Source: Heliocidaris erythrogramma
Taxonomy: Eukaryota > Echinodermata > Echinoidea > Camarodonta > Echinometridae
Assembly: GCA_025617745.1 (NCBI GenBank)
Contig: CM046853.1
Span: 30,865,313-30,929,312, forward strand
DNA length: 64,000 nucleotides
Direction: 5' to 3'
Part shown: in pieces, positions 12,907 through 61,686 of the stretch
Layout of the letters: each line of letters begins with the position of its first letter
How positions within the stretch are numbered: position 1 is the first letter of the stretch
The notes under the pieces: generated by a model
Database searches by the model: none
Told to the model about the DNA's origin: nothing
Seen by the model: only the letters and a program-made list of their open reading frames with translations
Program-made: the position numbers and the translations under genes

Positions 12907-13045
12907 GGGGGGCATTTCATGAAAGGACTTGTCAGATATTTTATCCGACAAATTTGCTCTCAGCCAATCAGATGCAAGGATTTCAGAAGCTTATAACAGT
13001 TGTCGGTTAAAATTTCCGACAACTTCCTTTCATGAAACGCTCCCC
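12907..13045 (-). mobile_element. Palindromic MITE, family F copy 1 (word TTGTCGG)
   Basis: Inverted ends GGGG(G/A)GC(A/G)TTTCATGAAAGGA. Read on the minus strand, the conserved centre is GTTATAAGCTTCTGAAATCC then TTGCATCTGATTGGC and AGCAAATTTGTC. The stem word TTGTCGG and its complement CCGACAA (or TCTGACAA) occur in both arms. Family members lie at 51306-51434 and 61539-61686. Confidence 0.8.
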
Positions 13046-13369
13046 TGTTTAGATGAATCTCTCCCATAATGTTTATCAAGCAGTTTAAAATCGCTCTTTA
13101 TGTGCAATTATTCGACCACTTTCATGTCTTACTAAAATATAACCAATGCGTACATTCGTGGTAAAACCGCAAAAAAACTTTCGACTACTCGCGTAATATA
13201 AAAAAAAAATTAAACCACAATATGAAACATTGGTAATTCGCGAAAGTTTTATGTAGAAAATTGTTTCTCGTTCCGTTGCAAGTGTCAGTAAGTATCTAAA
13301 GTTATCTTCGTTGGAAACAGTGCAACGACACCCTCTACGACAGTATTGACCGTACCACTTTTCAGCCTA

Positions 13370-13470
13370 AAAAAAATAAAAAAATAAAAAGAGCGATGGA
13401 GAGAGAGAAGAAAAGAGAAGAGAAAAGGAGAGAGAGAGAGAGAGAGAGAGAGAAAAGAAAAGAGAAGAGA
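13370..13470. repeat. (GA)n purine microsatellite
   Basis: A-rich and GA-rich tract containing about 16 consecutive AG units near 13427-13454, flanked by AAAAGAGAAGAG repeats. Confidence 0.9.
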
Positions 13471-13917
13471 AAAGAAGAATCATAAGCTGATTGTAGGCTT
13501 ATCACCAGCTTAATGGAAGAACACGAACATCGAAGTGACTTTGCCTTTTCTCCATTATTATGAAACGCATTATCACATAAACCGAAGAACAGCATATGTG
13601 CCACAAACGTTTTTCATCCAATCGCAAATCTTAAAAATAATATCCTCAAGAAAGTGATAAATAAAGCTCGCCACAGACCGTGAAACCTCCTATTTATAGC
13701 ATGGGCCTATAGAGATTTTCCCGCCCATTTTCCTCTTTGAATCATTCAATTTTTAAAAATGTGCTTTCAATTCCAACAAAAGGCCTATAGGACACACTCA
13801 TTTATACGCCATTCTTCCCGCCCTTCTCTGGTAAATTCATGGGTCTACGGAATTTTTGCGGGTTTTTTTTTTTTTTTCCAGAAAATTTTGAAGTAAAAAG
13901 GCACCGCCAAAATTCTG

Positions 13918-14098
13918 GTGACCCTTTCTTTTCTCATGTTCCCTTTCCTTTTCCCTCTCCTTTTTTTCTTCCTTTTTTCTTCTTTTTTTCTCTTTTGCTG
14001 TCGGCAAATGCGTCACCGCTGTCAGCAAAAGAGAAAAGGAGGGGGAAAAGGGAGAGGGAGGAGGAAAGGGAACATGAGAAAAGAGAAAGGAGAAGAAA
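13918..14098. repeat. Polypyrimidine/polypurine hairpin
   Basis: A C/T-only arm (about 13918-14002, containing CTCATGTTCCCTTTCC) is followed by a short mixed centre with GCTGTCGGC/GCTGTCAGC. A G/A-only arm (about 14022-14098, containing GGAAAGGGAACATGAGAAAA) is its near complement. The purine tract continues to about 14200. A C run (14240-14257) follows. The long open frames across it on both strands are artefacts. Confidence 0.75.
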
Positions 14099-14284
14099 AA
14101 AGAAAAGAAAAAGAAAAGGTAAAGCAAAGGAAAACAAAAACAGAAAGAAAACCACAAAAAAAAGGAAAATGGAAGAAAAAAAAAAAGATGGAAAAACTTA
14201 CTGGAAAGTTAATATTCGGCATTAGGCTGCAGGCTGCAGCCCCCCCCCCCCCCCCCCGAGGATTTTCAAAGTTCTGATATGTTT

Positions 14285-14580
14285 CATATTTGGGCAACGA
14301 GGAGATATATTCACATATTTGGGCAGCACGGTTCCCAGATAATTCTGTATGTAACTTCTGTACATTCTCTCTACGAAAATTTTCAACAAAAATTTGCTCG
14401 CTCGCTTGCAAAAGATTCGGCAATGGGCTGCAGCGAGGTTCCCAGACAATTATTTAACTTCGGTATATAGCTTCTGTACATTTTCTCTACCAAAAGTTAA
14501 AAAAATATTTGCTTGCTCGCTTCGTTCGCTCGCAAAAATTTAGATATTGACAAGTTGATATTCGGGTAAAAAGCGTCAGC
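14285..14580. repeat. Two-copy direct repeat of about 130 bp
   Basis: GGTTCCCAGA(T/C)AATT, CTTCTGTACATT(C/T)TCTCTAC and ATTTGCT(C/T)GCTCGCTT each occur twice, about 120-130 bases apart, with moderate divergence. The unit is probably the internal part of a dispersed repeat. The function is unknown. Confidence 0.65.
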
Positions 14581-14821
14581 CCCCTCCCTGCGAAAATGGG
14601 CCTGTATGACCAAGATCTTTACATCTGGGATTTTCTATTTTGTGAGTGGACCCCCACGAGGGGCTCTACACATTCGAACCCCGCTTGGGGCTTCACACCC
14701 AGACCCCCACTGAAACCGTACCACTACCCTTCCGACGGGCCTGAACTGGTGTTGTTTTAACACTTTTCTGGTGTAGTCCAATATTGATACCGAGATGATG
14801 TTGAATTAACATTGTTTTTGT

Positions 14822-14990
14822 AGTGCACTGTACCTAACCCTAACCCTGCACTAAAGCTAACCTAAAACCTAATGGCAACCCTAACTCTAACCCTAATTAT
14901 TTGACGAAATAAAGCCCGAAGCAATTGTCGCCCGAGCGTATGTCGGAAAACCTCTGGGAGAGTCGTGCTCCTATTCTCCTCCTTGGTCTC
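14822..14990. repeat. Dispersed repeat with telomere-like CCCTAA motifs, copy 1
   Basis: Contains CTAACCCTAACCCT and ACCCTAACTCTAACCCTAA, then TTTGACGAAATAAAGCCCGA, AGCAATTGTCGCC and TATGTCGG. The same order recurs at 49275-49710, so this is a dispersed repeat that happens to include degenerate telomere-type motifs, not a chromosome-end remnant on its own. Confidence 0.7.
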
Positions 14991-15169
14991 GTAACCACTG
15001 TTTGACGGTCGCAGCACAGTGTTCCATCCACCAAATATTGGCTTTGATTAAATCTTCTGCTTGATCCATGGTCCTGGCAGAACTTCCCAAGTCTCGCCCT
15101 TCCTTAAACTCCCTGAGCTGTGTTCAAAAAGAAAATATCCACATTGTGTATAATATTATAATAATAAAT

Positions 15170-15340
15170 GATTATGATGATGCCAGTGATGATGATGATA
15201 AAAATGCTAATAATTCTAATAATATTTATTGTTATTATTATTATAAAAATATCAATAATTCTAAAATAGTAACAATAACAGCAAAAAACATCAACAATAA
15301 TAATATAATAATAACAATAATTTTTATTTTTATATTTCTT
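15170..15340. repeat. AT-rich simple-repeat tract (ATA/ATG/AAT)
   Basis: Stretch of ATAAT, GATGATG and AATAAT units. The 92-codon frame running through it is low-complexity (Asn/Ile-rich) and is not credible as a gene. Confidence 0.8.
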
Positions 15341-15569
15341 TTATAAAAAACAGGGTAGTCCCATTCAAGCCGCCAGGCCTGCTTTCCAATGGAGCCCTGC
15401 TGTAACAAAGCACATACAATGCAAATAACATAAATTACAAACATATAGAATCATACAATTATAATACATTTCATGAAAATGAAAAATTTATGTAGAAAGA
15501 GAAATGTATGCAACTTGCAAAGGAAAAATAAATCAATTATTGTGTCTCATTTAGTATTAATACTGTACC

Positions 15570-15760
15570 TCCTGAGGGCCCTGCAATTATTATTACCCCA
15601 GCATAATTATACCAGGTACCCACGTAATACATAATGGGTAGAGAGAGTCAATTGAAACACGTTGTCCCATGTTATAGGCACCGAGTGAGGATAGAACTGA
15701 GGACCTTCCGTACGAGAGTCAATAGCATTCACCATTATACCACTTTGTTATCACCGCTAT
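15570..15760 (-). mobile_element. tRNA-derived SINE, degenerate copy
   Basis: On the minus strand an A-box-like AGTGGTATAATGG is followed by a B-box-like CAGTTCTATCC, then GGGTACC and a GGGGTAATAATA tail. The tail order matches the better preserved copies at 55340-55655 and 62205-62590. Confidence 0.55.
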
Positions 15761-16530
15761 AACAACTATTATTTTTACTAATGGTAATGTGTATTTTGTA
15801 ACATAACGATAATGTCACATCAAAATACATGACTGCGTATCTTAGCTCCGAAATCTCTATTCCTTCAAAGAAGCTATTTTCCTCAAACCCCACACAAACA
15901 ACGGGTTGATAATGATAATCCATTTTTCAAACATTATACTTGAACAACAAATATCAATCTTCCTTTATGAAAATAATGGATGTAACATTTATCATTATTC
16001 CTCCTCCGACTTGAAGCTATCCTATAGAGAATACGGAAAATATGCATTTCTTCGAATAAATAAGAGATTCAATGCAATTCAATTTAGTTTCTTTAGATGT
16101 GATGTAAGGATAAAATTATGTAATTACCGTCTGGAGATCTTGAGGGGTACTCAAAAGCCGTGTCACCGTCTCGATTATCATACGCATTGTGAAGAAACTG
16201 TTTCCATAGCTGAAAGAAAGAAGGATGATACTATTTGTAATCGGTGTGGCTCTGGTTCAAGTCCTACCGCAAGGAGGCCTTTCTTAATTTGCATGCCACA
16301 TTTCAAGATGGATGATTGGTTATCAGAAAAGGGGCGAAAAGTTGTCACGGAGTATGAAGTTTCGATAGAAAATAGCATCTAGATTGTCTCGGTTGCGCAA
16401 TCACGCTGTATATAGTTATGGATTTCATTGCCTTCTATTATAGAAGAATGAACTGCTCCTGACCCAGTCACACCGATGAGACCGACATGAGAGAGAAAAT
16501 AGAAGGAACAAAAAAAAATTATCACTCTGA
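15760..16530. other. Intergenic DNA with an unsupported 158-codon frame
   Basis: A plus-strand open frame spans 15906-16382. Its product has no motif I recognise. A GGTTCAAGTCC sequence (pol III B-box-like) near 16255 suggests part of it is an old SINE head. It is not annotated as a gene. Confidence 0.4.
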
Positions 16531-16534
16531 ATGG

Positions 16535-16882
16535 CAGGGTCGGCAAGATTTAAATCAACCTGATTTAAATCACAAATTAAATAGCCTTGAATTTTTTTTA
16601 AATCGCCGATTTAAATTAAAAACAAAGAAATGCTTTAGGAATTGTACTATTGATTTTGTTGATGCGACCAAAAACATCAAAATCACTCAATAATCATAGT
16701 TTGATTTTATTATTATTTGGCCAAAAAAAAATCCAAATAATGCCTGATATTGGATCTCCCTAAATAAAGTGTTGCTTTTCTATAAGAGCAGCAGTTAAGC
16801 CTATAAAACAAAATCAAATAAATCGATTAAAATCAAATAAATCGCGATTTTTTTTTTTAAATCATGATTTCTTCCAACCCTG
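16535..16882. mobile_element. hAT-like TIR element rich in GATTTAAATC
   Basis: Starts CAGGGTCGGCAAGATTTAAA and ends TTTCTTCCAACCCTG. CAGGG ends and an imperfect 8-bp duplication (CTGAATGG and CTGCATTG, two mismatches) fit hAT. The palindromic GATTTAAATC or its half ATTTAAATC recurs in both flanks. There is no transposase. Confidence 0.65.
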
Positions 16883-16892
16883 CTGCATTGTC

Positions 16893-18855
16893 AAGACTCG
16901 GTCGGTTTGAAGTCGGTTTGGCGTCGGTTTAGAGTCGGTTTATTTCCCAGTCACCGACAAGACGGACACTATAGACCGACAACAAATCGAATAAAAACAT
17001 TGCATTACCACACTCTTAAAAATGCGTGGTCAAAAATAACCCCAAACGGGGTTACAAATGACCTAGTAAGCGGGATCAACTATGCACAAACCCCGTGCGT
17101 GGTCACATTGACCCCGCCATGCAGGGTCACACAAAGTAACCACATAGCGTGGTTACATTTCGACCCCGAATGTGGTCAAAATTTAACCACGATTGCGTGG
17201 TCATTTCTGCATAACTTGACCCCGCATAATATGACCCCGCATACTAATGATCATTACCTTATAACCCCGTCAAAACGCACGGGGTCATTTCTTCCGACCA
17301 CGCAACGTGGTCATTTCCCGTCGGACGGGGTTGATACTTCTGCCGGATGCGCGTGTACCATCCACGTTTCAAAGATTAAAAAAAAGAAGCTAATGTCAAG
17401 TAATATCATAACATATTTTGTATATTTTGCTCACTATGACCTATAACCTATCCTCTCCTATCGTATAGCATATCATACCCCTATCATCCTACTTTAACCC
17501 TACTCCTATTATAGTCCTACATCCTATACCTATATATCCTGAAAACCTTTACTTTATTATAGGGACTGTATTGCAGTGCTTGCTAAAAGTGGTTAAAGAT
17601 TTTAATTTAATTTTCTAATGTAGATTTTTAGATCTTAAACCTAATTACATGTTTGAATATGTACAACATAATAATTAGTATACATACATTTTTCATCACA
17701 TTTCAAAGTGCAATCATTGCATAAAAACTTAAAAATGAAGTGTCATTTATATATATAAATTCTGGTTGTTTACGGTTGCTCATGGGTATTCAGGATACAT
17801 CATGAATATTTATGACAATGGCCCAACGTTTAACCAAGTAGAAGTCGGACCAATACTTTGCTGATGAATAAGCAATATTTCAAATGGTTAGTGATTAACC
17901 AGTGAAATTGGAACATTGTGACCAACATATTTTTGGAAATAACCCATATGGTGTTGACCAATCGCATTGGTACATTTTTTGACCAGTCCTTTTTTAGAGT
18001 GCTTTAAAATGACCAGTTTTTGCGTGGTCATTTTAAAATGACCAGTTTTTGCGTGGTCAAAATGACCACGCAAAAACTGGTCATTTTAATGCAGCGGGAG
18101 CATTATTGATCGAAAACAACCCCAACACGTGGTCGAATAAATTCGACCACGCATTATGCGACCCCGCATTTTTAAGAGTGCATGAATGGCAAAGAATCGG
18201 CCGGTTTGAAGTCGGTTTGGCGTCGGTTTAGAGTCGGTTTATTTTCCAGTCACCGACAACGGACACTAGACCGACAACAAATCGAACAAAACATTGCATT
18301 ACCATGAATGGCAAAGAATCGGTCGGTTTGAAGTCGGTTTGAAGTCGGTTTGGCGGTGGTTTAGAGTCGGTTTATTTCCCAGTCACCGACAAGACGGACA
18401 CTATAGACCGACAACAAATCGAATAAAAACATTGCATTACCATGAATGGCAAAGAATCGGCCGGTTTGAAGTAGGTTGGTGGTGGTTTAGAGTCGGTTTA
18501 TTTCCCAGTCACCGACAAGACGGACACTATAGACCGACAACAAATCGAACAAAACATTGCATTACCATGAATGGCAAAGAATCGGTCGGTTTGAAGTCGG
18601 TTTGGCGTCGGTTTAGAGTCGGTTTATTTCCCAGTCACCGACAAGACGGACACTAGACCGACAACAAATCGAACAAAACATAGCATTAACATGAATGGCA
18701 AAGAATCGGTCGGTTTGAAGTCGGTTTGGCGTCGGTTTAGAGTCGGTTTATTTCCCAGTCACCAACAAGACGGACACTATAGACCGACAACAAATCGAAC
18801 AAAACATTGCATTACCATGAATGGCAAAGAATCGGTCGGTTCGGGGTGTGTTTGG
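16893..18855. repeat. Tandem repeat, unit about 124 bp, about six units, split by a TIR element
   Basis: The unit contains TCGGTCGGTTTGAAGTCGG, GGCGTCGGTTTAGAGTCGG, CCAGTCACCGACAAGACGG and AGACCGACAACAAATCGAA, and ends CATTACCATGAATGGCAAAG. The junction CATGAATGGC starts at 18181, 18303, 18441, 18566, 18690 and 18816, so the unit is 122-138 bp. The first unit (16893-17010) is separated from the rest by the TIR element at 17011-18180. Open frames through it are periodic artefacts. Diverged relatives lie near 21600-21720. Confidence 0.9.
17011..18180. mobile_element. CACTCTTA-end TIR element E1, packed with GACCACG and GACCCCG words
   Basis: Inverted ends CACTCTTAAAAATGCGTGGTC and CGACCCCGCATTTTTAAGAG plus TG. 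Intact units of the surrounding tandem repeat show the empty site (ATTACCATGAATGG), so the insertion duplicated the dinucleotide CA. About ten GACCACG/CGTGGTC and about ten GACCCCG/AACCCCG words (either strand) crowd the two terminal zones (17025-17345 and 18000-18170). The middle is plain AT-rich DNA. No transposase is encoded. Confidence 0.85.
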
Positions 18856-18869
18856 TGGTTGGAGTGAGG

Positions 18870-20560
18870 TATATTACACCCATATTTGAAAACATATTAT
18901 AGTTATCAGCACTACTAATTATTACTGTCACAAGGATGGAACATCTTTCATATTCTTACAAGGAATACATAGACGGTGGAGGGACTATATGTATATCTAT
19001 TTTCTTAATGAGCTGTTACCCGCTTAAAAAATTCATCCTGGTTCGAAGATTTTCTGACTTTGTAGTCGTTCTCAATGTTGATAATGATTTTCATCACACT
19101 AACAAATTAGTAGCTACACAATGAAAGAGAGTTTTCTTTGATCTTCCAACTTGGTTTATTTTATTCAATAAAAATCAAAATTATGATTCATAACACAATC
19201 ACATAAATATATTCATTGTATTATAAATATATTACTCGATATCCCGTAATGTTATCATCTGGATTTCTTCATACAAATTCAAATATGCACAATTTACTAC
19301 AAAATCAATGGTGATAAATATTTTCTTCCATATATTTAGATAGGTTGATCTGCAAATACACAAGGTATGGATCAATATGAATCGAAATGAAAATCAAATA
19401 CATTCACATATTTCAAGAATATATAGATACAAGTACTAGACATGTATATTGCATTTGAAACATAAGCTATATTCTCTATTGTCTAAAATTTAAAAAGATC
19501 GGAATAAAATCATATCTATTAAAACAAATGCGTTGACACTATCTGACATAAATTACATCAAAATACAATTTGTTTCTACAAGATGTGTTGTGCAATGTGA
19601 AATGGCATTGTGCATCGTTTCTTTTTTGCATATAATTATATGAAACTAAGCGAACTTAGCGAAATTACTTGGGCATCTAAATTCAAATAACCGCACACAG
19701 CTGTTTGCATTACTATAGCTGGAATCGAAACATGATCTCAAAATATACAACTAATTGAAAAGTTTGCATAACTAGCTAAAGGAAATTAAAAGTTACGAAA
19801 AAGCATTTTAAAGGCAATTTGGAAAGAAAAACAAAAACTTTGGTTTGCAAACGTCACAAACAATGCCCCGTTAGAAGTGAGCAATGGAAAGTTTAAAAGC
19901 ACGAATGACTTAAGGATGAGTGGACAACATGGGTGGACAATATAAGTGGTTAAACTCTTAGGCGTTCCCTTACAAACTAAAAATCTTCATACCTTTGAGC
20001 GTGATCTATATACTCATACCGTGTTTCAACAGACGGAAAGTCATTTCTACAACACAATTTACACGTTACAAAATACATTGAATTTATATGTGGATTACAA
20101 ATGCATAAAACTTGCGATAAAGTCTAAATATTATATACACACCCGGCGTGCGCATGAGTAGGAAATTCTTCTAATTTATATACATGTTGGTAAATGAAAA
20201 CTTACACTGTGCACTCATTATGTCTAGTGAGCAGTAAATATTTACATCCACATAGTCGGCGAACCTTTAAGCGCTATCACCTGGAGTGATAACTTTTGAC
20301 TTTTATTATGATACATCTGAAACTACAACATTCCTACAATGTATACATATTTGTACCATTTTTTCCATAGCGCCCAGTGGTGGCTCTATTTCATCTGTTT
20401 TTCATATCGCAATATTCATAACGTATAAGTATACAATCGTGATAAATATATCTATCGATATTATGCCAAAAAGTATTCAGGTAGAAGTTAGAATCACCTA
20501 GATTAAACTTTGTCTGCAAAATCGTTCGTGTTACATTTGAATACATAAAGGAAAGGCCGA
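18870..20560. other. AT-rich intergenic DNA without recognised content
   Basis: No gene, SINE or inverted-repeat element was recognised in this 1.7-kb stretch. Short open frames (for example 18936-19124) have no family signature. Confidence 0.5.
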
Positions 20561-20565
20561 CTTAA

Positions 20566-28300: not shown

Positions 28301-31300
28301 AATAGAAACAAGTAACCTTTTATTCAATCTGATTTATTAGAAACTTTGAATTAGTATTTTGTTGTTAAAAATGTCATTATCAGGACCACATGAATACCCA
28401 TAATGATGTCAAAAGTCAGAAATCCTAATTTTATTCAAGTGCTGTCTTCTTCTTTTTTAAATAATGAGAATATAAAGATATTTTGAAGAAGAAAAAACCG
28501 AATAATATAATCGATCTACACTTACGGATTGAAATCATAGTCAGGGCTGTCAGTGTTGTTAGCGTCCCGCTCCATGTATTCGCGGTAGAGGGCAGAGGCC
28601 TGATCAAGGCAATCTTGATTGCGGTATCTGCATGACGTTCCTATGGCGTTAATTCTGTTGTATCTATTTCATAAATTAAACATCAAAACGTATCATAATT
28701 ACAGGACACAAATTCTACGGCTAACCAGCACAGGAGAACCAAATATTGCCTGCTATGGTATATAGAAGTCATTACAGGGCAATCCAAAATGTCAGAAAAT
28801 AAGAGAAACACGATAGTGAAAGTTTGGAAGAAAATCGGACAAAGAATAAGAAAGATATAGTATGTTTGAAAATGACATAAAATATATGCGAATCTCAAAT
28901 TGGCAATTTGATCAGTCGATTTTGACATATTTTCGGTCAACTCTTCCGTTTATCGTACACTAAAAATTTCCGTTTTCTTCTATTAAAGCGCCTTTTCCCT
29001 GGGCGCAGTCGTCAAAATATATTGCGGAGAGCATAACGGAATAGTTTTTCCCCCCAAAAAAATATCCTTTTAAATAATATGGTACTTTTTGAAAAATTAC
29101 ACTTTAACATTTTAGTCATTTTGTGTGTTTGAACAAATAGGAGAGTTACCCGCCCCGCCGCTATATCACAGTGACTTCACCGATTCGGCCTATGTGAAAT
29201 TCCCATATAATGTAGTGATTACAACTTTCAAAAATTCATAACTTTCGTATTTGTTGTCCGATTTTGTTCAAACTTTCACCAATCTGCATCTCTGATTTTG
29301 CGGCTTCAGAGCAACTTACCATAAGGTTGGATTTCCCTTTAACCCATAGCAGTACAGTGTCTACTTTTAGTGACACTTATGCAGTACCTTTTGGTCCAAA
29401 TGCTACGAATTACACATTATACATGAGCAGAAAGAGGCCATTTTAATGCAGTACGTTGTGCTGTTCTCGAATAAGAACGATTTAATTGTAACTAATCATT
29501 AAAGTCTCTAAACTGGCAATGCAGTGTAAAATATATAATCACTATTTATATGTGCAAATTGGCAGTTTTTCTGTTAAATTTTGCGATTTTCATTCACATC
29601 CGTTCATTTAATAAACATTTGTATTTTTTTCAAACTCTGAGAGTAAAAAAATAGGTGTTGCTAATTTGAGGAGGAAAAGCTAATTAATTGGAATCCTACG
29701 AAAATTATGAACTGCTATGGCAGAGACTCCAACCGAAAGCGGGAGATCTCCCGCTTTCGGCGGGAGATCTCCCGCTTTGAGGCCATTTTCGCAAAGCTTT
29801 CCAGCTTGAGTTTGAATTTCTCCCACCCTAGCTTAAGATGTATTTAGTCCCACTTAAAATTAGCTTTCTCCCGCCCAACTATTTTTAAAAAATAAAACTA
29901 CAATTATGATCTTGATCATTGGATGATACATTTAGCTTTGTCATATGTTCAAAAATAAGCCTAAGATCATTGAAGATAGCACCAGAGAGCGTCTATAACC
30001 CTAGAGCTTCCAGGGCCCTTAAACCCTTCAACAAGACAATTGACCAAATTTTGTGGTTTGGCTCTATAACTTTTGATTCAGAGCCTTTAAAAAATATACA
30101 AGATCCATGAGTAGAAAGAACAAAAATTTCTGCACACACACTAACAAAAGTCATTTTTGTTGCATGACTATACTGTGTTTCATGCCAGTAATTTTAAAGA
30201 CGAGAATTAGTTTTAAAGTCCTTAGATTTGCAACACATTGAGATGTCAAAATCATTGTTTTTTATCACAATTGACAATTTTTTCAACTTTTCGACAAAAT
30301 CCTATTATCAGATTATGTACATTGTACATCTTATCAGAACCATGTAGCACTAAAAGCAAAATATTATTGTTGCAAATTTGAAGAACAACAATTTAGCCCT
30401 GAAATTACCTTGGACCTTGGCCGCAAGGGACGTCGCCCTTCGCGCTCGTGATGTGCACTACGCGCACATAGTGCGCATGTTCGCACGCGATCAGAGTCTC
30501 CAGTTTGCTAGGGGTCCAGGCAGGAGAATCTCCCGTTTAGGGGGTGCTTGGGGTTGTAGTCGCTGCTATGGGTTAAGCAAGAATAATCCAAGAGCCAAGC
30601 TTTTCCTTAGGCTCCTTCATATGTTTATGTTTAGCAAGTCTTCAAATCTTTAATCGTGTCATTTAATACATCGTAATATTAATATTTCCATGCATATTTG
30701 AAAATTGCAAAAACTGCGATTTTTTTTTTGTGTTATACATTTTCTTATATATACACTAAAGGAAAAAAGAAACTTATAAAAGTTCAAGAGATCACCAAAT
30801 TAAATTCTCTGCATGGAAATGTACCAAATTTGGATATAATGTTGATTCAATGCATGGCTTTAAATGACAGTCAATAACAAAAAGTTTTCTTCAATGCCAC
30901 AAAAGAAATGTGCACTGAAACAAAGGACTCTCTAATCCCAAAGTCACAAAGACAAACTGCAGCCTTGTACACCATATGCATGTCAATGAATGAAACAAAA
31001 GAATTTCAAAAGGGATTTGCACCCCTCGAGCAAGAGGATATTGATGTTCTGCCATGGCGCGCCCGTTCACCAGACCTTTCCCCAATTGAACATCTCTGGG
31101 AAGAGCTTGGTCGACGTGTGTCAAGGCGTGACAATCAACCCATCAATAGGGAGACGCTCATTGCAGCACTGCAAGAGGAATGGAACAATGTTCCCCAGGC
31201 TACCATCGCGAATCTGATCGGAAGCATGCGAAGACGGTGTACAGCTTGCCAGCAAGCTAGAGGTGGACATACTGGCTATTAATCTGTTTCGATTGAACTT

Positions 31301-32700
31301 GCAAATCCCTTTTGAAATTCTTTTGTTTCATTCATTGACATGCATATGGTGTACAAGGCTGCAGTTTGTCTTTGTGACTTTGGGATTAGAGAGTCCTTTG
31401 TTTCAGTGCACATTTCTTTTGTGGCATTGAAGAAAACTTTTTGTTATTGACTGTCATTTAAAGCCATGCATTGAATCAACATTATATCCAAATTTGGTAC
31501 ATTTCCATGCAGAGAATTTAATTTGGTGATCTCTTGAACTTTTATAAGTTTCTTTTTTCCTTTAGTGTATATATATATATATATTTCTTCTTTTTTCTTT
31601 TTTTTGGGGGGATATGAAAAATAAATTCACTGGAAACTTGAAATTAATAAACATTCCACTTGTATATACTGACAGTTTTCTGAAGTTGTGACCTCATCGT
31701 AGCAGAATCATGTAAAAAGAATCGTAGGCATGTCTACACATATTTTGGGTCCGTATAAATGATTTCCACCTCAATTTTTGTTGTTGGTATTATTGTAAGA
31801 ATAGGCGTGGAAAGGCAGCACTGGGAAATTGCAATCGCTCGTTGTAGGGGAACTATAATAGTAGACCGTGATAATCTATTAGAGAAAGAACAATAATGTT
31901 TGCTAAGAATACACTGAAAATTAATAATACTAACGCATTGATAGGATTCCCCCTAACGTAGGAAATAATCTTGTAATAATAATAATAATAAACATTAAAA
32001 CTATTAATACTCAGTTCTCAGATTAAGATGGAAATCTTCCAAAGAGATTTGGATTATTACCCCGGCTCAGCCTTGTTGCCCTTGCGCTGAAGCTTTAAGG
32101 ATTAAATTCCTTGTGGGTACACGTTTACTTCATTTACTTCACCTGGGTAGAGAGAGGCAAAGTGCAATTTTTTTATGTCTTGCCAAAGGACTTAGTGCCG
32201 GGCTGGGATTCGAACTCCGTACCTTGTGATCTACAGTCCGGTAACTTATCCACTAGACCACAACACATGTACACGGATGAACCGCACACCGGTACAGGCC
32301 TGCAAAAGATCTCCCATTTTATATTCATCGTTTTACCATATTCTATCGGACACTTACTGCGTCAGATGAGGGTCATTCACAGGATCATCATTCCATCCAA
32401 GTGCGTTGTACAATGTGTCAACTTGTTGTCTCATGTATCTCTGGCAAAGGAAGAAAATAAAGGTTATTGCCTTCATCATAACTGGTAATTATCCTATCTA
32501 TCATTGTTGTCACTATACATACATCATCACTCTGCATGCTTTCTGTTCTTTCATGAATATTATCATTGATATGATCATCATAAATATGTGTCATCATTAT
32601 TAATAGCATTATCACTATGAAAAATATGATTTCTCTTATATCAATATCATTCTAATGCTGTATTTATGGTTGTTTTTATTATCATCACTATCATTATCAT

Positions 32701-49274: not shown

Positions 49275-49710
49275 CTAAGCCTCAACCCTGCACCACACAC
49301 CATACCTAACCCTAACCCTAAACCTGACCTAAAACCCAATTTCGACCCTAAACATCACCCTATATCTTTGACGAAATAACGCCCGGGTGGTGTTTCATAA
49401 AGCTATTCGTAAGTTACGCACGACTGGTGATAAGTTCTTGTGCTAAATGATTGAGAATCTGATTAGTATAGCACCTAAGAACATGTTCCAGTCGTTCGTA
49501 AAGTCATTCGTAACTTTACGAACAGCTTTATGAACCCCCCCCCCCCCCCCGAGCAATTGTCGCCGGGGCATAATATTGAGAATCTGATTAGTATAGCACC
49601 TAAGAACATGTTCCAGTCGTTCGTAAAGTCATTCGTAACTTTACGAACAGCTTTATGAACCCCCCCCCCCCCCCCCGGAGCAATTGTCGCCGGGGCATAA
49701 TATGTCGGAG
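49275..49710. repeat. Telomere-like dispersed repeat copy 2, with inserted palindromic element and 125-bp duplication
   Basis: CTAACCCTAACCCTAAACCT, then TTTGACGAAATAACGCCCG, then an insertion (49386-49550) with ends GTTTCATAAAGC/GCTTTATGAAC and TTCGTAA words, then GAGCAATTGTCGCC. Copy 1 at 14822-14990 lacks the insertion. A 125-bp block starting TTGAGAATCTG at 49451 is repeated at 49576, with C runs of similar length and no other obvious change, so it is a recent tandem duplication. Confidence 0.8.
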
Positions 49711-51305: not shown

Positions 51306-51434
51306 CTGGGCCCCGTTTCATAAAACTTGATAACAATAACAGTTATAAGCTACTGAAATACTTGCATCTGATTGCCTGAGAGCTAATTTGTCATAGATTG
51401 TTATTGATAATAAGTTTTATGAAACGGGGCCCAG
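51306..51434 (+). mobile_element. Palindromic MITE, family F copy 2 (word TTATTGATAA)
   Basis: Ends CTGGGCCCCGTTTCATAAAA and exact complement. Centre GTTATAAGCTACTGAAATAC then TTGCATCTGATTGCC. The stem words are TTGATAACAATAAC on the left and GTTATTGATAATAA on the right. Compare 12907-13045 and 61539-61686. Confidence 0.85.
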
Positions 51435-51439
51435 TTTCA

Positions 51440-53141: not shown

Positions 53142-53191
53142 CAGGCGCCTGGGAACGATTTTGTTACTGGGGGTGCTTTAAACCCCCCCCC

Positions 53192-53224
<33 letters not shown>

Positions 53225-53473: not shown

Positions 53474-54582
53474 ACAGTGTCATATTGAGTTACTCTTCGT
53501 ACATGCATGAACATAAGGACATCTCCTGTAAAACCATAGTAACATTAATCGCCCCCGGGGTACCGACTTGTTTCAAGCACCTCGACAAATCACATTCGGA
53601 AGACGGTAGACTACCTTTTATATAACTCGATTCTGATGTCGAGAGTCGTTTATTTGTCTTCCCCAGTAGCCATTTATGGCGTCTGCGAGTCAGAGGGTTA
53701 CGTCAGTGAGGGCTGATTTATGACTACATGCAGATATGGAAGTATTTGGCTGTGGTGCATTTATTGACGCCAGAGGATAAGACATAGATTCGGCAATAAT
53801 TCCAGTTCGCACTATTTCATGTCCACTTGCGTTTCATTGTAAGCTGTATATTCTACATGTATATATCTCTCTCTCTCTGTCTATCTCTCTGGAAAAACAA
53901 CCTCTACCCCTCCCCCTGAAAAAGAAAAACAAAAAAAAAACACACAAGAGAAACAACAGTTCTACAAGGTCATGCATTACAACAACAAAAAAGAAAAGTT
54001 GAAATTTCAACGAAAATGTAGATCATTGTGAGAATCAAATATTTTCAAAACATTACATCATGCTTTAGCATTAGTTTCATTTATCACACTTGGAGAAAAA
54101 CTACAAACGAATCATAAATTTGACGCAGTGGGCGGGTACAAAGCAATGAACTGTTATATATCCCATACGAAGTTACATCGTTCAATTTGCACTCAGGTTG
54201 ATAATGTCAGGCAGCTCAATTCAATATCAAGATATCAGCAGACTATCAAAATTCGTTCCAAAAGAGCTCCTTATTAAACAGTCGCAGCCCCTAAGTGCAT
54301 TGCACTCATTTCCAGCACGATACGTTCCCTTATTCTTCATAAATTATGATTATCAGCGGTCCAATGTTCAAGAACATTTATTTTAACTCGCCCATACATT
54401 AGTGAATTAATCACGATGCAGATAATAATCATTAACTGATTTGATAAAACATTATGCGGTGTTTCTTAGTCATTGTTACGAATTGAGAGGGATACATTGA
54501 CTACTAAAAGCAATTATAATAAAAGGTATAAGTTCTGTGTATCATAGTTCATACAATTATGATGCTTCATCGATCTTGTTAA

Positions 54583-55952
54583 AGACCCCAACTGAAGCAA
54601 ATACAACCATAGATCGATGGAAAGATAAGTAGACGTAAAATACAAATAATGTGGGTAAGCATCATTTTTCCTTTCAAAAATCCACAAAAAACAGAAAGTA
54701 CAACTCACTGTACGCCCCCTTCCGGTTACGTAATAACAAGGGTTCGCTCGGCCGATACACTTATGACGTCATCTTGTGTGGACAACTCTGTGGCTGGCGC
54801 ACGTAGCAGCGCGTAAACAATGGACAGTGAATAGCTTTCGTACAATAGCCAGTTAGTTTCGGGGGCGGAGTTTGTCAAGTTTTGTGAAAGTTTTGAGAGC
54901 TGATTTAACAGAGATGGCTGCCTCAAAAACATAGGGCTTAACAAGAGAAATGCAACAGAAAAGAATTATTGAAATTTAACAATTTGTTATCGAGTTATGC
55001 CATCATTGCCATATTGTGACAGGTTTGATTTACATGTCCCATCCTGCCGCATAAGCAAATTAAGTCATCTATCAACTCTCCTTCACACAGATTTTGAACA
55101 GAAAATTGAGGAAAAAATACTGTGACTTTCTTAATCTGACAGACACTGCCTTGGGGTTTTTGAGAGGGAATGAGACATGAGAGAGGTTTTCATGCCCAGA
55201 ACTCAGAAGAAAAATGTTCATGGACTCAGAGTTCGTCCCGAAATCAGTTTATCATCTTTAGCACTGCAGTTTGATTATTTTTATAACATTTGAGACTTCA
55301 GAGGCTCTCCTATAAATTTCAGGGATTATATATATAATATATTCCGTTTTTTATATAGCGCCTAATACATCGGTGATGTCTCTAAGCGCTTTACAGATAT
55401 ATTATTACCCCGGTCATCGGATTCTGGCATGCCCTCACACAATGTATGCACATTCTCCGCTTCCTGCAGTATTCCAGCAAAGGGCAATACAGTGACGCTC
55501 CCATTGCTAAGCAAACGACATTAACTTTCGCATCCTACCGGGTACCCATTTAACACCTGGGTGGAGAGTGGCAAATGTAGATCAACGTCTTGCCAAAGGA
55601 CTCTAGTGCTGCGGTTGGATTCGAACCCCGGACCTCGTGGTTCACAGTCCGGATTCTGTGAAGCTAGAAGCAGTCTCAGCGAGAAATATCTCTGAAACCA
55701 TACAATGTAGAGTAGACTTATTTTTCGTTCTAGTCTGACTAAATTAACCTAAAAAATGCATGGTAGAATTCCACTATTTACGAGTTTCCAAATCAGTAAT
55801 CAATAGTCAGTTAGTGTCTTTAAAGAAAACTAGGAGTGTGTTGTAACCAAATTTTACCAGGGTAAACCGCTGCCTTAGAACTAGAAATTAGAGTTAGAGC
55901 TTTCTGCAGATATATAATTTGTCTATTCCATTTTTGGCTTCGGTTGGGGTCT
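54583..55952. mobile_element. TTAA-flanked element of 1.37 kb with a SINE inside
   Basis: TTAA at 54579-54582 and 55953-55956. Ends AGACCCCAACTGAAGC and, in complement, AGACCCCAACCGAAGC. It is related in wording to family T1 (AGACCTCAGCCTGACC), including a following TACAACCATA segment. A tRNA-derived SINE lies at 55340-55655. No transposase frame was found. Confidence 0.85.
55340..55655 (-). mobile_element. tRNA-derived SINE, best preserved 3' half
   Basis: On the minus strand: GTCCGGGGTTCGAATCCAACC (B box), AGAGTCCTTTGGCAAGACGT, CACCCAGGTGTTAAATGGGT, then GGGGTAATAATATATCTGTA, AAGCGCTTAGAGACATCACC and a GGCGCTATATAAAA tail. The tRNA-like head is truncated or diverged near 55655. This tail defines the family. 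Confidence 0.75.
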
Positions 55953-56342
55953 TTAACTATTCTATGGGGCGATGGGATATTGAAAAGGAAGTGCGAAGGG
56001 GTATTGAAAGGAATAATCACGCTCAATGAATGTATGAGAAAATATCAACATAAAAATATTGTTCTTGACTTAATTACAAATATTTGGTTGAATTTGAATA
56101 GAACAGCTAGGACTTGTGTCTGACCCGTTGACTACTGGATTATCAAATTCCCATAGGATTAATACAGGGATGACCCTGTTCCCGTGGGCAATGGGTTAAT
56201 GTCCCTAATAAAGATACTAGAATCAGTGGAAGAGTATTCCAAAGGTATGGAGCTGATGCACTGAATATCTCTGAATGCAAAATTCTCACAGCATATCATG
56301 TATAGATGTCAAGCTCATTGTAATTTGATTCTGAGCTCGTTA

Positions 56343-56553
56343 CACTCTTAGAAATGTTGGGTAAATGCCACTGGGTAAATGAAGATTGGGCATAGGTTGG
56401 TTAAATATTGCTCAAATTTTACATGCATTTACCCAACATTGGTCAAAAATAACAATGAAATTGGTAAAGTTTACCCAAAAGTTGGTCGGACTCATAAGGA
56501 CCCTCATGTTGGGTAAAATTTGGGTAAAATTTTGCCCAATATTTCTAAGAGTG
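56343..56553. mobile_element. CACTCTTA-end TIR element E2 (word TTGGGTAAA)
   Basis: TA-flanked (56341-56342, 56554-56555). Ends CACTCTTAGAAAT and exact complement. GGGTAAA or TTTACCC (with close variants such as GGTTAAAT and TTGCCCAA) occurs about nine times in 210 bases on both strands. Confidence 0.85.
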
Positions 56554-57344
56554 TATGGTTATTTCTTGAAATATGAGTAAGAAAAATATATTCTCATAGA
56601 AATTATTCGCCATATTCACTGAATATTGTGAAACATCAGTAGATTACAAAATATGTCAGTCATGTGAAGAAAAAAATCGGAGCAAGACTTAATCCTCCAT
56701 CATGAAAATAATAGTCGATTAAAAATATGATTTGCAACTCTGCTGCTAAATCAGACCCAACAAGTTGCATCGGACATTGGATACAAATCCTTTAAATTTG
56801 AATATTGTGTGTGTATATAACAGAGAAGGAGAAATAGGAAAACAGAAAGTGCTTCGTGGCGTGCATATCACCTCTCAAAACCATATGGGACGAAAGGTCA
56901 GACAAATGCGACCAACATGGAGTTAGTCAAGTTCGTCAGCCCATGCAGACGACACTGCAGAGCTTACAAAATAGAAATATTCACAGATATAGATATATGT
57001 AACTCAGTGGTGAAAGAACACTTTAAACAGCCACAATATATAAATCCTTTCTACAGATCTTCTTTAGTAGAATACAGGTTGGTGAATCCGAAAAGAGTGA
57101 TCGTTCAAGGTATAACGCGGCAATTCTGAAACAAACCGAAGTTAGACCGCTCACAACTCATACCAAACAGCAAACTCTCTCTGTGAATTCTTTTTAAAAA
57201 TTCATATCATTTCAGAACATCAATCAACATTTTCATGCAGCATCTTTAACTTTATAACCATCAGAGCACAGATCTTCACAATACTCCCATTGCTCGAAAA
57301 ATGGAAGAAGAAATAAATGACAGAAAATCAAGTTCAACACTTAC

Positions 57345-57417
57345 AAATAAAAAGATGCAACTGGTTGCGATGTCCCTGCTGACCAGTCTTACACAGTATA
57401 GCGGACTGGTGATATAA
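57345..57417 (-). promoter_or_regulatory. Candidate TATA box and noncoding first exon of the aminopeptidase gene
   Basis: On the minus strand TTATATC (57417-57411) is followed about 30 bases later by a possible start zone (GTAAGACTGGTCAG, about 57390). After a further 45 bases without ATG comes a strong donor GTAAGTGTT (57344 downward). Exon 1 needs an upstream donor because an acceptor precedes its ATG at 49062. Other sites could serve equally well. RNA data would decide. Confidence 0.3.
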
Positions 57418-57429
57418 GGGTGTTGCAAC

Positions 57430-59050
57430 TCTTTGTATAATGTAACGTAAACCGCTGCTCCGTTTGTTTCGCTGTACGGTTTACTTTAGACCCTGTTTAC
57501 ACTCGCAGGTGGAACAAGTTCATAGCAAGCCACAAGGGGAATTTCTCCACGATTGTGAATAAGAGAAGCCTTACCGTATATCAAGACCGTCAGAAATGTA
57601 ACAGCAGGTGCTCGGGGAGCAAAATGATTGGGGGTGGGGTGCTTTTAACATGATTTCCCGACAGGAAACAACAAATAAATAAATACTTACAAGCATTGTA
57701 AACGTCCCTAGATTATAGAATAAGCAGACAAACATTAAGTGAAAAGCCAACAAGCAAAATTATAAATTGGTCCTTGGATTTTTCCCGACAACATTTCGTT
57801 TCCATATAAGGGGTATTTTTTCGTTCAATTAATATTTCATCAGATTTTTAAAGGAAACTATGATTAGATTGATGTAACCCTCCACCTCCAGCAACACGTC
57901 CCCTTAAAGAATGTGTTCCCAGAAGTAAAGAGTGGCCCATAGCGTACTAAATTCATCTTATATGGCTTTTTTTTATAAGATCATGGTCAAACTCATAGTA
58001 AGCTTGTTCAATTAATGCATGCTTTTTCAAGATGTAAACGGCGTGTTCACACATGTACCACTCTACAAGAACGGTCTGATGCGATTTCTTGTTGGATCTC
58101 CCGATGTGAAATGGGTCTCGTATCACCCAGCTCTTTTACTCTAATGGGCGTTGCATATGTATCGCCAAGTCCAAAGGTAGCCAAGTGATGCGATAAGGAA
58201 ATGGAGGAGTAAAAAAAAAAGAAATTTGTGCAAGACTGAAATTATCTGTGGATGATATTACGATAAAGTAGGTGGCAAAATTGCAGTTTAAAGTTTTTAA
58301 ACCATTCATTGCCATTCGGATGAGGCCATGTGACTCTGTGTGTGTGTGGGGGGGGGGGTATGCGTGTGTGTCTATATGACATCGAACAAAGAGAACAGTG
58401 GGTCATCGGTAGTAATTCAATAGGTCATCGGTTGTCAACAGTTGGTGAGGTTTATTCCGTCAATGAATTTTGTGACGCAATTCAATAGTGGAGTCATCGG
58501 TTGAAATTCGAACAATAGAAAACATAGATGTGTGCGTATGCGTATGGGTGTGTGGGTGGGTGTGTGTGTGTGAGTGAGTGAATGTCTGGTTTTAGGGAAG
58601 TAAGTGTGGGTGGGAGGGATGGAAGGTTTCTACGCACTGGTAGTTCCGGAGAGAATGGGTAGGGAGGGGTCCTTGTCGTTTGTTTGTCTTTGTTGTTTTT
58701 TTTAATAATAGATTCCGTAAAATTATGATTTGTTCACTTTGTTTGGATATACATCATCACACTAATATGTTTAAATCTTATATAATCATGTATGGAATAA
58801 TTTCAATTCAGTTACACCATTAGAAACGCACATTTTATTAGTTTTGATTTTACGTTCCAGAGGAAGAATATTTTGCATGATAATTATATAAGTGATGATA
58901 AAGTATTTTATTTGTTCATTGTGTTAAAACATTCAAAGAGAATATGTTGATTGTATAATTTGTGTTTCATGGAGTCAGTAATAAAGATGATTATTCTGTA
59001 AACAACAATTTTTCGAATAATGACATACACTACCAAACAGCACACTACGA
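57430..59050. other. Intergenic DNA with a GT-rich tract
   Basis: No gene recognised. From 58335 to 58600 there are (GT)n, a G run, and three copies of GGTCATCGGT/AGTCATCGGTTG. The rest is AT-rich. Confidence 0.5.
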
Positions 59051-59056
59051 TAGACT

Positions 59057-59594
59057 GCGAAAGCAGATTGGTGAAAGTTTGAACGAAATCAGACAAGGAA
59101 TAAGAAAGTTATGAATTTTTGAAAGTTGTAATCACTATGCATATGGGAATTTCAAATTGGCCAAATAGGTAATGTCACTGTGATGTAGCTGTGGACAAAT
59201 CTCCCATTCGCTCCAACACAGAAAATGACTAAAATGTCACTTTTTTCAAAACGTATTACTCAGTAGGATCTTTTTCTTTCATGAGGACCTATACCAATTT
59301 GCTATCTCTAATATATTTTGAGTACTGCCTCGAGGGTAAAAGTGCCTTGAAGTAAACAGCTAATTAATGATATTTTTGTGTATGACAAATGGAAGAGTTG
59401 TCCACAAAAAGGTCACACAATCCACTCACCAAATTGCCAATTTGAGATTCCCATAGATGTAGTGATCTCATTTTTTAAACATCCATAACTTTCTTAGTCC
59501 TTGTCCGATTTCTTTCAAACTTTCACCATCCTGTTTTTCTTATTTTTCTGCTTTCACACAAATCAACTTATTACCAAGGTTGGATTGTCCTTTT
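59057..59594. mobile_element. TTAA-type MITE, family T2 copy 3, left end lost
   Basis: Contains GATTGGTGAAAGTTTGAACG and, toward the right, ATTTCTTTCAAACTTTCACC, then GGTTGGATTGTCCTTTTTAA. It is collinear with 11494-11998. The left terminal repeat is missing. Confidence 0.7.
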
Positions 59595-60702
59595 TAAGCC
59601 TATCTGGGCATTTAACCCTTCTACCACGGCTGGTAGACCTACAAATACGTTGTTTTGAGTTTATATCTATATGCAATCTTCATCGTTTGATTTCTTCAGG
59701 TTAGCAAAATATGACATGATAATACTTAACAAATTTTGATAATTTTCTCAGCTGGCAAGCATTAGACAGATTAAAAAGCTTGTTCATGTTCAATGTACTT
59801 ACTCTGCTTTTTAACAAGTTATTTGGTAAATAAGTATGTCTCAAGTCATGAAAACAGGAACAAACAGAAATATAATGATATTCATCTCCAATATCTTTAG
59901 AAGTACATAAGGGAAATTGAATACCATCAATAACACTAGCATCAAATCGACTTATATTGACAGGCAGATTATGTGATCTGCATCTAAATCTTTATGATCC
60001 AGAAGCTCAAAATATTTTTCTTTCACTAAGTTTGAATATTCTGTAATTAGTGCAAATACGGTTATATAGTGTGCGGTGGGCATTATGTCACTTGGTGCTG
60101 ATGTCACATATTACTTCGCTTTGAAATTATCATTTGGAAAGCATTAAAGTAATAATCCTTATCGTCACGTTATAAGCATGCTACGCTTTTGTTATATTAA
60201 TGGCTCTTCATTCGTAACATTATAAAATGACGTAACCCACCTTTAGTATTTGAGACAAACCAACCAATCTCCAATTTACAAAAAAAAATTAAAAATGAAT
60301 AATCATATATACGACTACCATGCAATTTCCATTGATTTTAATCCCAAAATACTCCAATCACATATTATGCATTCATATAGGGCAATGAGAAATTGTCAAG
60401 CAGAAATGACTCTCCTCTTCCCTGGTGGGGTGTGGCAAATGGAAATTAATGCCTTGCTCATTTGTCCAATGGTAATTTATTCTTTTAAAGGAATAATTCG
60501 TCATGACGTTTACTAATGGGACACATAAATGTAGTTCAATTCTGTTAATTTGGCCATTCTATAAATGTATTCGTATGGTGTAACATGATTCATATTATAG
60601 CAACGAGCAAGAAATCTTCGTCAGTTGCATTTCTGTTAAAAAAAGGATCTATTTTTATGGGTTTGCTTAACAGGGGTTTGCTTAACAGGGGTTATTTAAC
60701 CA

Positions 60703-60733
60703 GGGAGGTGGAAGAGTCTGCCACCTCCCTGAT
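60703..60733. repeat. Hairpin CAGGGAGGTGG...CCACCTCCCTG
   Basis: 11-bp arms around a 9-base loop, just after a 15-base direct repeat (GGGTTTGCTTAACAG-type) and just before the TTAA of the next element. Confidence 0.7.
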
Positions 60734-60737
60734 TTAA

Positions 60738-61219
60738 CTCTTTCAGTGCCGATGTTACGTATATGTGACTGATAGACTTGCCAGTTTCATTCACCAATTG
60801 CTCGACCACAGGAAAGGTATATGGTGGTCAATGTATATCAAAATATTGAGCATAAATCAAGCATTCTAAATATATGATTACAATTATATGCTACCATAGA
60901 AATTTTCAGATAAAATTACAGATTTTTAAAAAGATATTACCTTATTTCAGCATTAAATAATAGTAAACATATGAGAAACTAAAAAAGTGGACAAAATAGG
61001 AACTCAAATATAATTTTTATAAATAATTCTTATGCAAAAATTTGGGTAAAGTAATAATGTTTGGTATCATAAGAAATGGTAATAAATTTCCTAACAAGTT
61101 TTGTACACAATATTCTGTGAAATAATACATGGTTAATGAAGTGCAGACATTTGAAAACTAAGCATTGATCCCATTTTGGTAAAATTTTGAGAGAGCTAAA
61201 CCCCTTGGCACAGTAAGAG
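60738..61219. mobile_element. TTAA-flanked MITE with CTCTTTCAGTGCC ends
   Basis: TTAA at 60734-60737 and 61220-61223. Ends CTCTTTCAGTGCC and, in complement, CTCTTACTGTGCC. The interior is AT-rich without coding sequence. Confidence 0.8.
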
Positions 61220-61538
61220 TTAACCAACCGACGAGTTCATTGAAACATGTATATTGATACCTGATATTGTTCAGTTTGCACTGTACAAAAGGAAGGTACA
61301 AAGTTCAGCATGATTTTGTTTGGTAAAGTATTTACTCCGAGAGTCCGTATCAGTTCACGACAATCTTATCTCTTTGCCTTTGCCATACACCTGTTGATTT
61401 GAGCATTATATCGATAGCGCATTCCTATATAAAGATTGCAAAGCGGTTCTACAAAAATAATGCGTTTGAAGACGTTATAACATCTCAGCCACACCGTCGA
61501 TACATCTCCAAACCGACCGAGAACTAGGTCATCCTTAT

Positions 61539-61686
61539 GGGCCCCATTTCATAAAACTTGTTATCAATAACAAGTTGCTATAGTTGTTATAAGCTACTGA
61601 AATCCTTGCATCTGATTGGCCCACAGCAAATTTGTCATAGAAATGTGGCAGTTGTTACTGATAACAAGTTTTATGAAACTGGACCC
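61539..61686 (+). mobile_element. Palindromic MITE, family F copy 3 (word TTGTTATCAATAACAA)
   Basis: Ends GGGCCCCATTTCATAAAACT and, in complement, GGGTCCAGTTTCATAAAACT. Centre GTTATAAGCTACTGAAATCC then TTGCATCTGATTGGC and AGCAAATTTGTC. Left stem word TTGTTATCAATAACAA, right TTGTTACTGATAACAA. Confidence 0.85.

Follow-up and report, generated by a model that had tools for sequence, protein, structure and literature searches.

Palindromic MITEs with a common asymmetric centre and several arm versions in the sea urchin Heliocidaris erythrogramma

Palindromic elements in the window

The window, that is, the whole stretch of 64,000 nucleotides of Heliocidaris erythrogramma contig CM046853.1 that was analysed, contains three palindromic elements of 129–148 bp (E1–E3, Table 1), which had been picked out in an earlier note made from the letters alone. 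As single-strand DNA, these elements fold far better than shuffled sequence, with fold z values of −9.50 (E1), −9.87 (E2), and −5.70 (E3), and no equally good fold was obtained in 200 dinucleotide shuffles of each. The nearly invariant asymmetric centre and the exchange of stem words described in that note were likewise recovered: GTTATAAGCT.CTGAAAT and TTGCATCTGATTG are present without mismatch in E1, E2, and E3, and both the words and the outer stem (CATGAAAGGA versus CATAAAACTT) differ between elements. In subfamily S1, to which E1 belongs, each arm has two sites for the word TTGTCGGATA and its complement, with TTGTCAGATA at the outer site on the right; the S1 outer stem is CATGAAAGGA, and the left arm of E1 carries additional changes.

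Table 1. Coordinates of the palindromic elements and their centres in the window
Feature	Position	Strand	Basis or detail
E1, palindromic MITE, subfamily S1	12907..13045	-	fold and genome copies
E1 asymmetric centre	12947..12997	-	51-base centre, 98% identity
E2, probable shortened relative of subfamily S6	51306..51434	+	fold and genome matches
E2 flanks	51306-51308; 51432-51434		CTG; CAG
E2 asymmetric centre	51342..51392	+	94% identity
E3, palindromic MITE, subfamily S3, word TTGTTATCAATAACAA	61539..61686	+	fold and genome copies
E3 asymmetric centre	61586..61636	+	94% identity
E4, additional palindromic element	49391..49536	+	fold z −8.12

E1 and E3 are each one copy of a separate multicopy subfamily; among the best 40 scored genome copies, the 39 others are 97–99% identical to E1 and 93–95% identical to E3. 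For E2, the 39 best other genome matches are 80–89% identical, and 32 of these 39 are 144–155 bp long versus 133 bp for the query; because of this lower identity, the longer matches, and the presence of an S6 copy (L154) among them, E2 looks like a diverged, shortened relative of S6. The ends of E4 (GTTTCATAAAGC and GCTTTATGAAC) are of the same kind as those of E1–E3, its word (TTCGTAA/TTACGAA) and centre are different, and its similarity to them is one of plan.

A genome-wide family with one centre and several arm versions

The genome contains 11,290 exact occurrences (5714 + 5576) of the combined 33-base core pattern of the centre, and none of it read backwards. The elements are short, have terminal inverted repeats and a high copy number, and show sharp ends in 157 copies, as is characteristic of MITEs. 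Their arms carry an inverted-repeat word, and five subfamilies (S1, S3, S4, S5, and S6), each close to a common consensus, combine one asymmetric centre with several arm versions; the S1 and S3 consensus centres, for example, are identical over 51 bases in copies found with whole-element queries, their left arms being 58% and their right arms 61% alike. Among 100 copies selected by the centre, the arm classes were S4/S4 (62), S1/S1 (17), S5/S5 (8), S3/S3 (2), and S6/S6 (2), followed by S4 with an S5-like right arm (3), S4 with the right arm lost (3), and single cases of S1/S4, S5/S3, and a lost left arm with S5. The framework with exchangeable words proposed earlier thus stands as regards the common centre and its several arm versions. 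Both arms do carry the same version in E1–E3, but not as a rule, as is evident from the eight S5, one S1/S4, and one S5/S3 copies per hundred.

S5 has different words on its two arms, which are only 46% alike; its right arm is 83% alike to that of S4 and its left arm 82% alike to that of S3. A 74-base S5 probe gave 1,456 genome matches at ≤3 mismatches, 64 of them exact (for scale, exact matches number 692 for S4/S4 and 266 for S1/S1). In the 100-copy sample, seven of the eight probe matches were S5 and one was S4, which gives roughly 1,270 S5 copies in the genome. Recognisable, differing words are retained on both arms in 17 of 18 exact S5 matches that were fetched. In L201 the right arm is broken, and L205 and L206 lack the right end and have near-identical flanks; L115 and L116, both S5 chimeras, are near-duplicates. 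Further combinations are rarer. S1-left/S4-right gave five exact matches, in all of which the outer arms are likewise S1 and S4, and two of which share flanks; S4-left/S3-right gave 11 matches at ≤3 mismatches, and the outer arm bore out nine of these, including two duplicates; and S4-left/S1-right gave two exact matches, with only L218 confirmed on the outer arm. The other, L217, was rejected as a chimera because S1 is present on both sides, including the outer left arm. Whole arms of different subfamilies joined around a common centre therefore exist, and matched arms are unnecessary for amplification, S5 having reached about a thousand copies. As an alternative to a recombinant origin, S5 may be ancestral.

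The flanks were counted in 157 of 203 loci, with 46 left out for a missing end or as duplicates and only GGG-pattern ends considered. CW and WG flanks were found in 115 of these 157 copies, and the flank composition yields an extended palindromic target with a consensus of about AnAYCWGRTnT. In 78 of the 115 copies the two flanks have the same W; in the other 37 the W differs, which is odd for a plain 3-bp duplication. CWG duplications and ends that are usually GGG are described for NuwaI (PMC4482050), and an extended target preference, present here, is described for PIF/Harbinger (PMC2836001); on the basis of CWG flanks, GGG ends, and the extended palindromic target, the sequences point to the NuwaI/PHIS (Harbinger-like) group. 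A DDE_Tnp_4 search, in which 150 of 581 candidates were scored, served to look for a partner. Matching ends on both sides were absent from all 14 loci inspected (eight transposase loci with about 1.5 kb of flank and six more in 5-kb stretches) and from one 5-kb extension, so that no autonomous element bounded by such ends turned up there. The single S4 end followed by foreign sequence was rejected as the end of an autonomous element, being a truncated copy, as was an end beside the transposase at L187, which belongs to another small palindrome.

Arm changes between subfamilies and within copies

Coordinated change, as described in the earlier note, appears real at the founding of S4 versus S1: between their consensus sequences, eight changes are shared by the two arms, four affect one arm, and one differs from arm to arm. 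It is not seen in S3 versus S6, where no change is paired and seven are on one arm, S6 being represented by one copy. One explanation is two-ended selection, in which the words bind a transposase or DNA-binding protein that itself changes, and each new word is fixed stepwise at both ends through success in transposition, without arm copying. The words do occupy the same subterminal position on both arms and, by analogy, the Harbinger3_DR Myb-like protein is described as binding a 9-bp subterminal motif (PMC9710019). However, S5 is abundant despite its differing words. Moreover, of 46 hand-aligned columns, 11 differ between S4 and S1 in each arm, and the 17 bases adjoining the core (the core itself being fixed by the selection of S4 copies) are the same in the two majority sequences, so block replacement fits better and two-ended selection is rather unlikely.

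Within copies, pairs were counted in 62 S4 and 15 S1 copies picked by the centre alone, after removal of flank duplicates (65 to 62 and 17 to 15, respectively) and omission of copies with a lost arm; the whole-element query samples of S1 and S3 are best hits, biased to low divergence, and their counts are secondary. Non-CpG stem pairs of S4 showed 140 one-arm changes and one compensated change, against a shuffle mean of 0.79. All pairs of the centre-selected S1 copies gave 32 one-arm and no compensated changes, and the 40 low-divergence best hits of S1 gave 16 and none. In the S3 best hits, non-CpG pairs gave 53 one-arm changes and one compensated change (shuffle mean 0.27). At non-CpG sites the arms of one copy therefore change independently of each other in S1 and S4, and less firmly so in S3. 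S4 copies average 3.1 arm mismatches, with none in only two of 62, and S4 variation is 2.9% in non-CpG stem columns versus 2.4% in 13 columns of the loop that lie beyond the selected core.

CpG pairs behave differently. In S4, 19 were compensated versus a shuffle mean of 10.34, and none of 2000 shuffles reached this number; the inner CpG was TG/CA in 15 cases and CA/TG in one. In the S3 best hits, eight were compensated versus a mean of 3.35, a total reached in 0.62% of 5000 shuffles. The S3 states were TG/CA (4) and CA/TG (3), with CA/CA (2) and TG/TG (0) uncompensated; both mirror forms are present, as correction would give. The excess is judged to result from repeated CpG hits together with inherited sub-lineages, and it stays partly unexplained; no sub-lineage marker for the S4 excess was found among the other S4 columns.

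Hairpin-templated correction that continuously keeps the arms of resident copies alike, one of the two causes of arm agreement suggested in the earlier note, would account for the eight paired S4/S1 changes and the compensated CpG excess. Such correction should, however, act on non-CpG positions too, where one-arm changes predominate in S4, S3, and S1, and it sits poorly with the mismatches carried by nearly every S4 copy; it is accordingly very unlikely. Independent divergence of the arms in most copies, which the note had named as evidence against its own idea, is what is seen outside CpG, the paired CpG excess being the part that runs the other way, and the arms are mostly not kept matched.

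Similarly improbable is the idea that the words stem from unrelated elements with nothing but their ends in common, which picked up the same centre. The low likeness of the S5 arms to each other and of S1/S4 arms to S3/S6 arms (54–64%) would suit such an origin, but S1 and S4 are 77% alike in their left arms and 78% alike in their right arms, which can be aligned base for base, and half-sites of the TTGTC type recur in S4, S5, and S1. Least probable of all is that the arms are held paired by selection acting on folded RNA or DNA: the hairpins are strong, but in S4 conservation is no higher in the stems than in the loop and no surplus of compensated changes is seen outside CpG, S5 with its mismatched arms is abundant, and no Rfam family reached threshold in the 64-kb window. 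One-arm drift outside CpG, similar stem and loop variation within S4, and the abundance of S5 thus lend no support either to a general correction of resident copies or to selection for the fold, both of which were tested on centre-selected copies.

Proposed origin of arm agreement and comparison with known systems

The pattern of arm agreement probably reflects mainly the founding of subfamilies and less a standing correction system. In the account preferred here, which is given a probability of roughly 0.6 as a whole, the elements are non-autonomous palindromic DNA transposons, most likely mobilised by a PHIS/NuwaI Harbinger-like transposase, and the words are putative recognition sites of an element-encoded DNA-binding protein or transposase. 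The arms of a copy would agree mainly because the founder's arms agreed, and mixed elements would be products of recombination or deletion via the common centre. Rare arm-to-arm copying (by template switch or post-excision repair) or two-ended selection may have matched the arms of some founders before their bursts.

Parts of this account have published counterparts. NuwaI, a member of PHIS (PIF/Harbinger, ISL2EU, Spy, Pangu, and Nuwa), shares the CWG flanks and mostly GGG ends; its group occurs in animals, with a separate Myb/SANT DNA-binding protein, and its families were found via transposase homology, by which MITEs were possibly missed according to that paper (PMC4482050). Unlike in that description, W is often unequal here and an autonomous partner was not found at the 14 loci. 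Tourist-type MITEs such as mPing, of PIF/Harbinger, are likewise short and non-autonomous with an extended target preference; they are moved by two proteins and make a 3-bp duplication, which for mPing is usually TAA rather than CWG (PMC2836001). Galileo, of the P superfamily in Drosophila, has terminal-repeat subfamilies and chimeras with two different ends, as here, and also copies in which two ends of one subfamily enclose the interior of another, and recombination and conversion were proposed; it differs in its superfamily and long terminal repeats, and its 12 chimeras, out of 170 copies, lie between non-matching flanks, in contrast to the high-copy subfamily that S5 forms here (PMC3573991). 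Template switching, which both forms and mends hairpin stems, can give the two arms several identical changes in a single event with the loop unchanged, much like S4 versus S1, although it was studied in RNA genes (PMC8794818) and would here be deduced from two consensus sequences. Arm chimeras are thus already known from Galileo and compensatory stem copying as template switching; a title-level literature search found no published title describing the present family.

A more specific version of the preferred account is offered tentatively, as a possibility with the odds against it: a subfamily would be born when a foreign or new arm is acquired by recombination through the centre, a template switch copies that arm across the hairpin, and the founder bursts. 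Arm copying of this kind would at once yield a palindrome with the new word at both ends and the centre untouched; S1-left/S4-right and S5 would then be intermediates, every stage of the cycle would be present in the genome, and the paired CpG states of S3 and S4 would be minor remnants of such copying in active lineages. Apparently compensated stems among a few repeats may, more generally, be subfamily differences. With more than ten thousand copies, several arm versions, and several mixed combinations, the family forms a natural data set on how palindromic transposons gain new ends, and arm copying at the founder level, if true, would explain how both ends of a MITE change jointly.

Subfamilies of the palindromic elements

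The genome searched comprises 1.064 Gb in 26 contigs, in which the window corresponds to C1:30865313-30929312, and the open frames of the window include matches to M1 aminopeptidase domains and a NAB conserved region, which suggest an animal genome. Three palindromic MITEs (E1, E2, and E3) are present where the earlier note had placed them, all of which fold far better than shuffled sequences. As queries against the genome, E1, E3, and E2 yielded 1,364, 2,862, and 3,144 candidates, respectively, of which the best 40 were scored in each case; the 39 matches besides the query itself reach 97–99% identity for E1, 93–95% for E3, and 80–89% for E2 (32 of E2's 39 are 144–155 bp long). From these identities and lengths, E1 and E3 belong to separate subfamilies, S1 and S3; E2 appears to be related to subfamily S6, in shortened form. 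The differences that had suggested exchangeable arm motifs ("words") are real, but the items compared are three subfamilies rather than three mutating copies of one.

A 33-base core of the common asymmetric centre has 11,290 exact matches genome-wide, and the first 100 on contig C1, a selection blind to the stems, were classified by left/right arm. Classes with both arms of one subfamily are S4/S4 (62), S1/S1 (17), S5/S5 (8), S3/S3 (2), and S6/S6 (2); the mixed or lost classes are S4/S5-like (3), S4/lost (3), S1/S4 (1), S5/S3 (1), and lost/S5 (1). The commonest subfamily in this sample, S4, is absent from the window, and its majority sequence is complementary between arms in 44 of 46 arm columns. 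Exact genome-wide matches number 692 for S4/S4 and 266 for S1/S1.

Coordinates of the palindromic elements and of other features observed in the window and at other genomic loci
Feature	Position	Strand	Observation
E1	12907-13045	-	palindromic MITE
E2	51306-51434	+	palindromic MITE
E2 flanks	51306-51308 and 51432-51434		flanking CWG triplets (CTG, CAG)
E3	61539-61686	+	palindromic MITE
Fourth palindromic element	49391-49536		GTTTCATAAAGC ends; word and centre both different
Partial repeat of fourth element	49570-49655		immediately downstream, beyond a C-run
Inverted repeat	30746-31575		276-bp arms, 100% identity, spacing 278 bp
Open frame	30878-31282		resembles the C-terminal region of a Tc1-type transposase; no hit in the Pfam search of window frames
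Hairpin	18000-18093		near-perfect; arms of 35 nt with 97% complementarity; perhaps a further MITE
S3-type copy	L008:1673-1777		lacks most of its centre; adjoins a second S3 copy
Small palindrome (L187/L188)	~C4:25204085-25204222		100 bp, 88% self-complementary, CAGGGCATCGTTTCATCAA start on one side only; ~200 bases ahead of a 373-aa frame containing a DDE_Tnp_4 match

Coordinated change in copies and founders

Pair changes in S4 were counted over 62 deduplicated copies and 44 complementary pairs, with the chance level obtained by random re-pairing of left and right arms. All 44 pairs together gave 192 one-arm changes, 20 compensated changes (16 of them on one CpG pair), and 1 uncompensated double; without the four CpG pairs, the counts become 140, 1, and 0 (shuffle mean of compensated changes, 0.79). 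The non-CpG pairs of S3 (40 best hits) gave 53 one-arm changes and 1 compensated (shuffle mean 0.27), and S1 (15 copies, all pairs) gave 32 one-arm changes and none paired. S4 variability is alike in non-CpG stem columns (2.9%) and in the 13 loop columns outside the core (2.4%).

The earlier note had attributed coordinated arm change to hairpin-templated correction or selection on a folded form. Within copies, such coordination is seen at CpG pairs, in which compensated changes exceed the shuffle level both in S4 (19 versus a mean of 10.34, with 0 of 2000 shuffles as high) and in S3 (40 best hits; 8 versus 3.35, a level reached by 0.62% of 5000 shuffles); the excess lies at columns 19/120 and 7-8/141-142, respectively. 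A general correction of the arms would yield such an excess, as well as the two mirror forms found in S3 (4 and 3); it is nevertheless unlikely, because it ought to act alike on non-CpG sites, where only 1 of 141 changed pairs in S4 and 1 of 54 in S3 are compensated. The paired forms of S4 are lopsided (TG/CA 15, CA/TG 1), as would be those of an inherited sub-lineage, though no other column marks one. The CpG excess is only partly accounted for.

Between founders, a hand alignment of S4 and S1 arms (46 columns) gave identical changes on the two arms at 8 columns, one-arm changes at 4, and differing changes at 1; when 11 changes were placed independently in each arm, 8 coincidences arose in 0 of 200,000 simulated trials. 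Between S3 and S6, the latter represented by one copy, 37 columns hold 7 differences on one arm and none that are paired; founder-level coordination is therefore real in one comparison, but not general. The simplest account of the S4/S1 change is arm-to-arm copying, in which template switching, a mechanism described in PMC8794818, would copy one arm onto the other and leave both founder arms alike. A rival is that both ends were selected for a new binding protein.

Target sites and element type

Flanks were compared at 157 of 203 loci, those whose ends are recognisable and whose flanks are not duplicates; 115 of these carry CW before and WG after the element, and the two W bases agree in 78 copies but disagree in 37. 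Mutation by itself would probably not produce so many unequal pairs; a flanking base might travel with the element, or the repair of gaps might be atypical. Further flank bases extend the target consensus to about AnAYCWGRTnT, and pairs of MITEs lie end to end around one common CWG (at L042, L044, L134/L135, L219, and L223). CWG at the flanks would fit NuwaI elements of the PHIS superfamily, for which PMC4482050 describes CWG duplications and usual GGG ends. Since the words are subterminal inverted repeats, and the Myb-like protein of Harbinger3_DR binds a subterminal 9-bp motif (PMC9710019), we infer that the words are putative binding sites. An autonomous partner was found neither at the 14 transposase loci inspected nor by way of an S4 end that runs into other sequence.

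Mixed arms and the common centre

Contrary to the earlier note, the same word need not occupy both arms: in S5 the left arm is S3-like and the right arm S4-like, and the two are 46% alike when two and four flanking bases are included. With up to 3 mismatches allowed over 74 bases, the S5 pattern has 1,456 genome matches, of which 64 are exact, and seven of eight such matches in the 100-copy sample are S5, the remaining one being S4, so the copy number is about 1,270. Recognisable, different words are kept on the two arms in 17 of 18 exact matches fetched. Other combinations are S1-left/S4-right (5 matches, all confirmed by the outer arms; 4 distinct by flanks, 3 of these with equal W), S4-left/S1-right (2 pattern matches, 1 confirmed), and S4-left/S3-right (11 pattern matches, 9 confirmed, 8 distinct). 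Some loci of the last kind (L219, L223, L224, and L227) abut another S4 end or sit within about ten bases of one; a likely source of mixed elements is therefore recombination, or a deletion, that joined neighbouring elements through the common centre. S5 may be such a product, or may instead be an ancestor of S3 and S4.

Arm swapping is already known behaviour, because Galileo in Drosophila mojavensis (PMC3573991) likewise combines ends of different subfamilies (chimeric in 12 of 170 copies), with some copies having both ends of one subfamily around another's interior. It is less usual that a mismatched chimera reached a high copy number and that the centre stayed unchanged. S4 and S1 are identical over 17 bases beyond the core (itself fixed by how S4 copies were chosen), and in copies retrieved by querying with whole elements the S1 and S3 centres match over 51 bases. 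The other strand of the centre reads AGCCAATCAG, which we take to be CCAAT-box-like, and this likeness might be a reason for the conservation of the centre.
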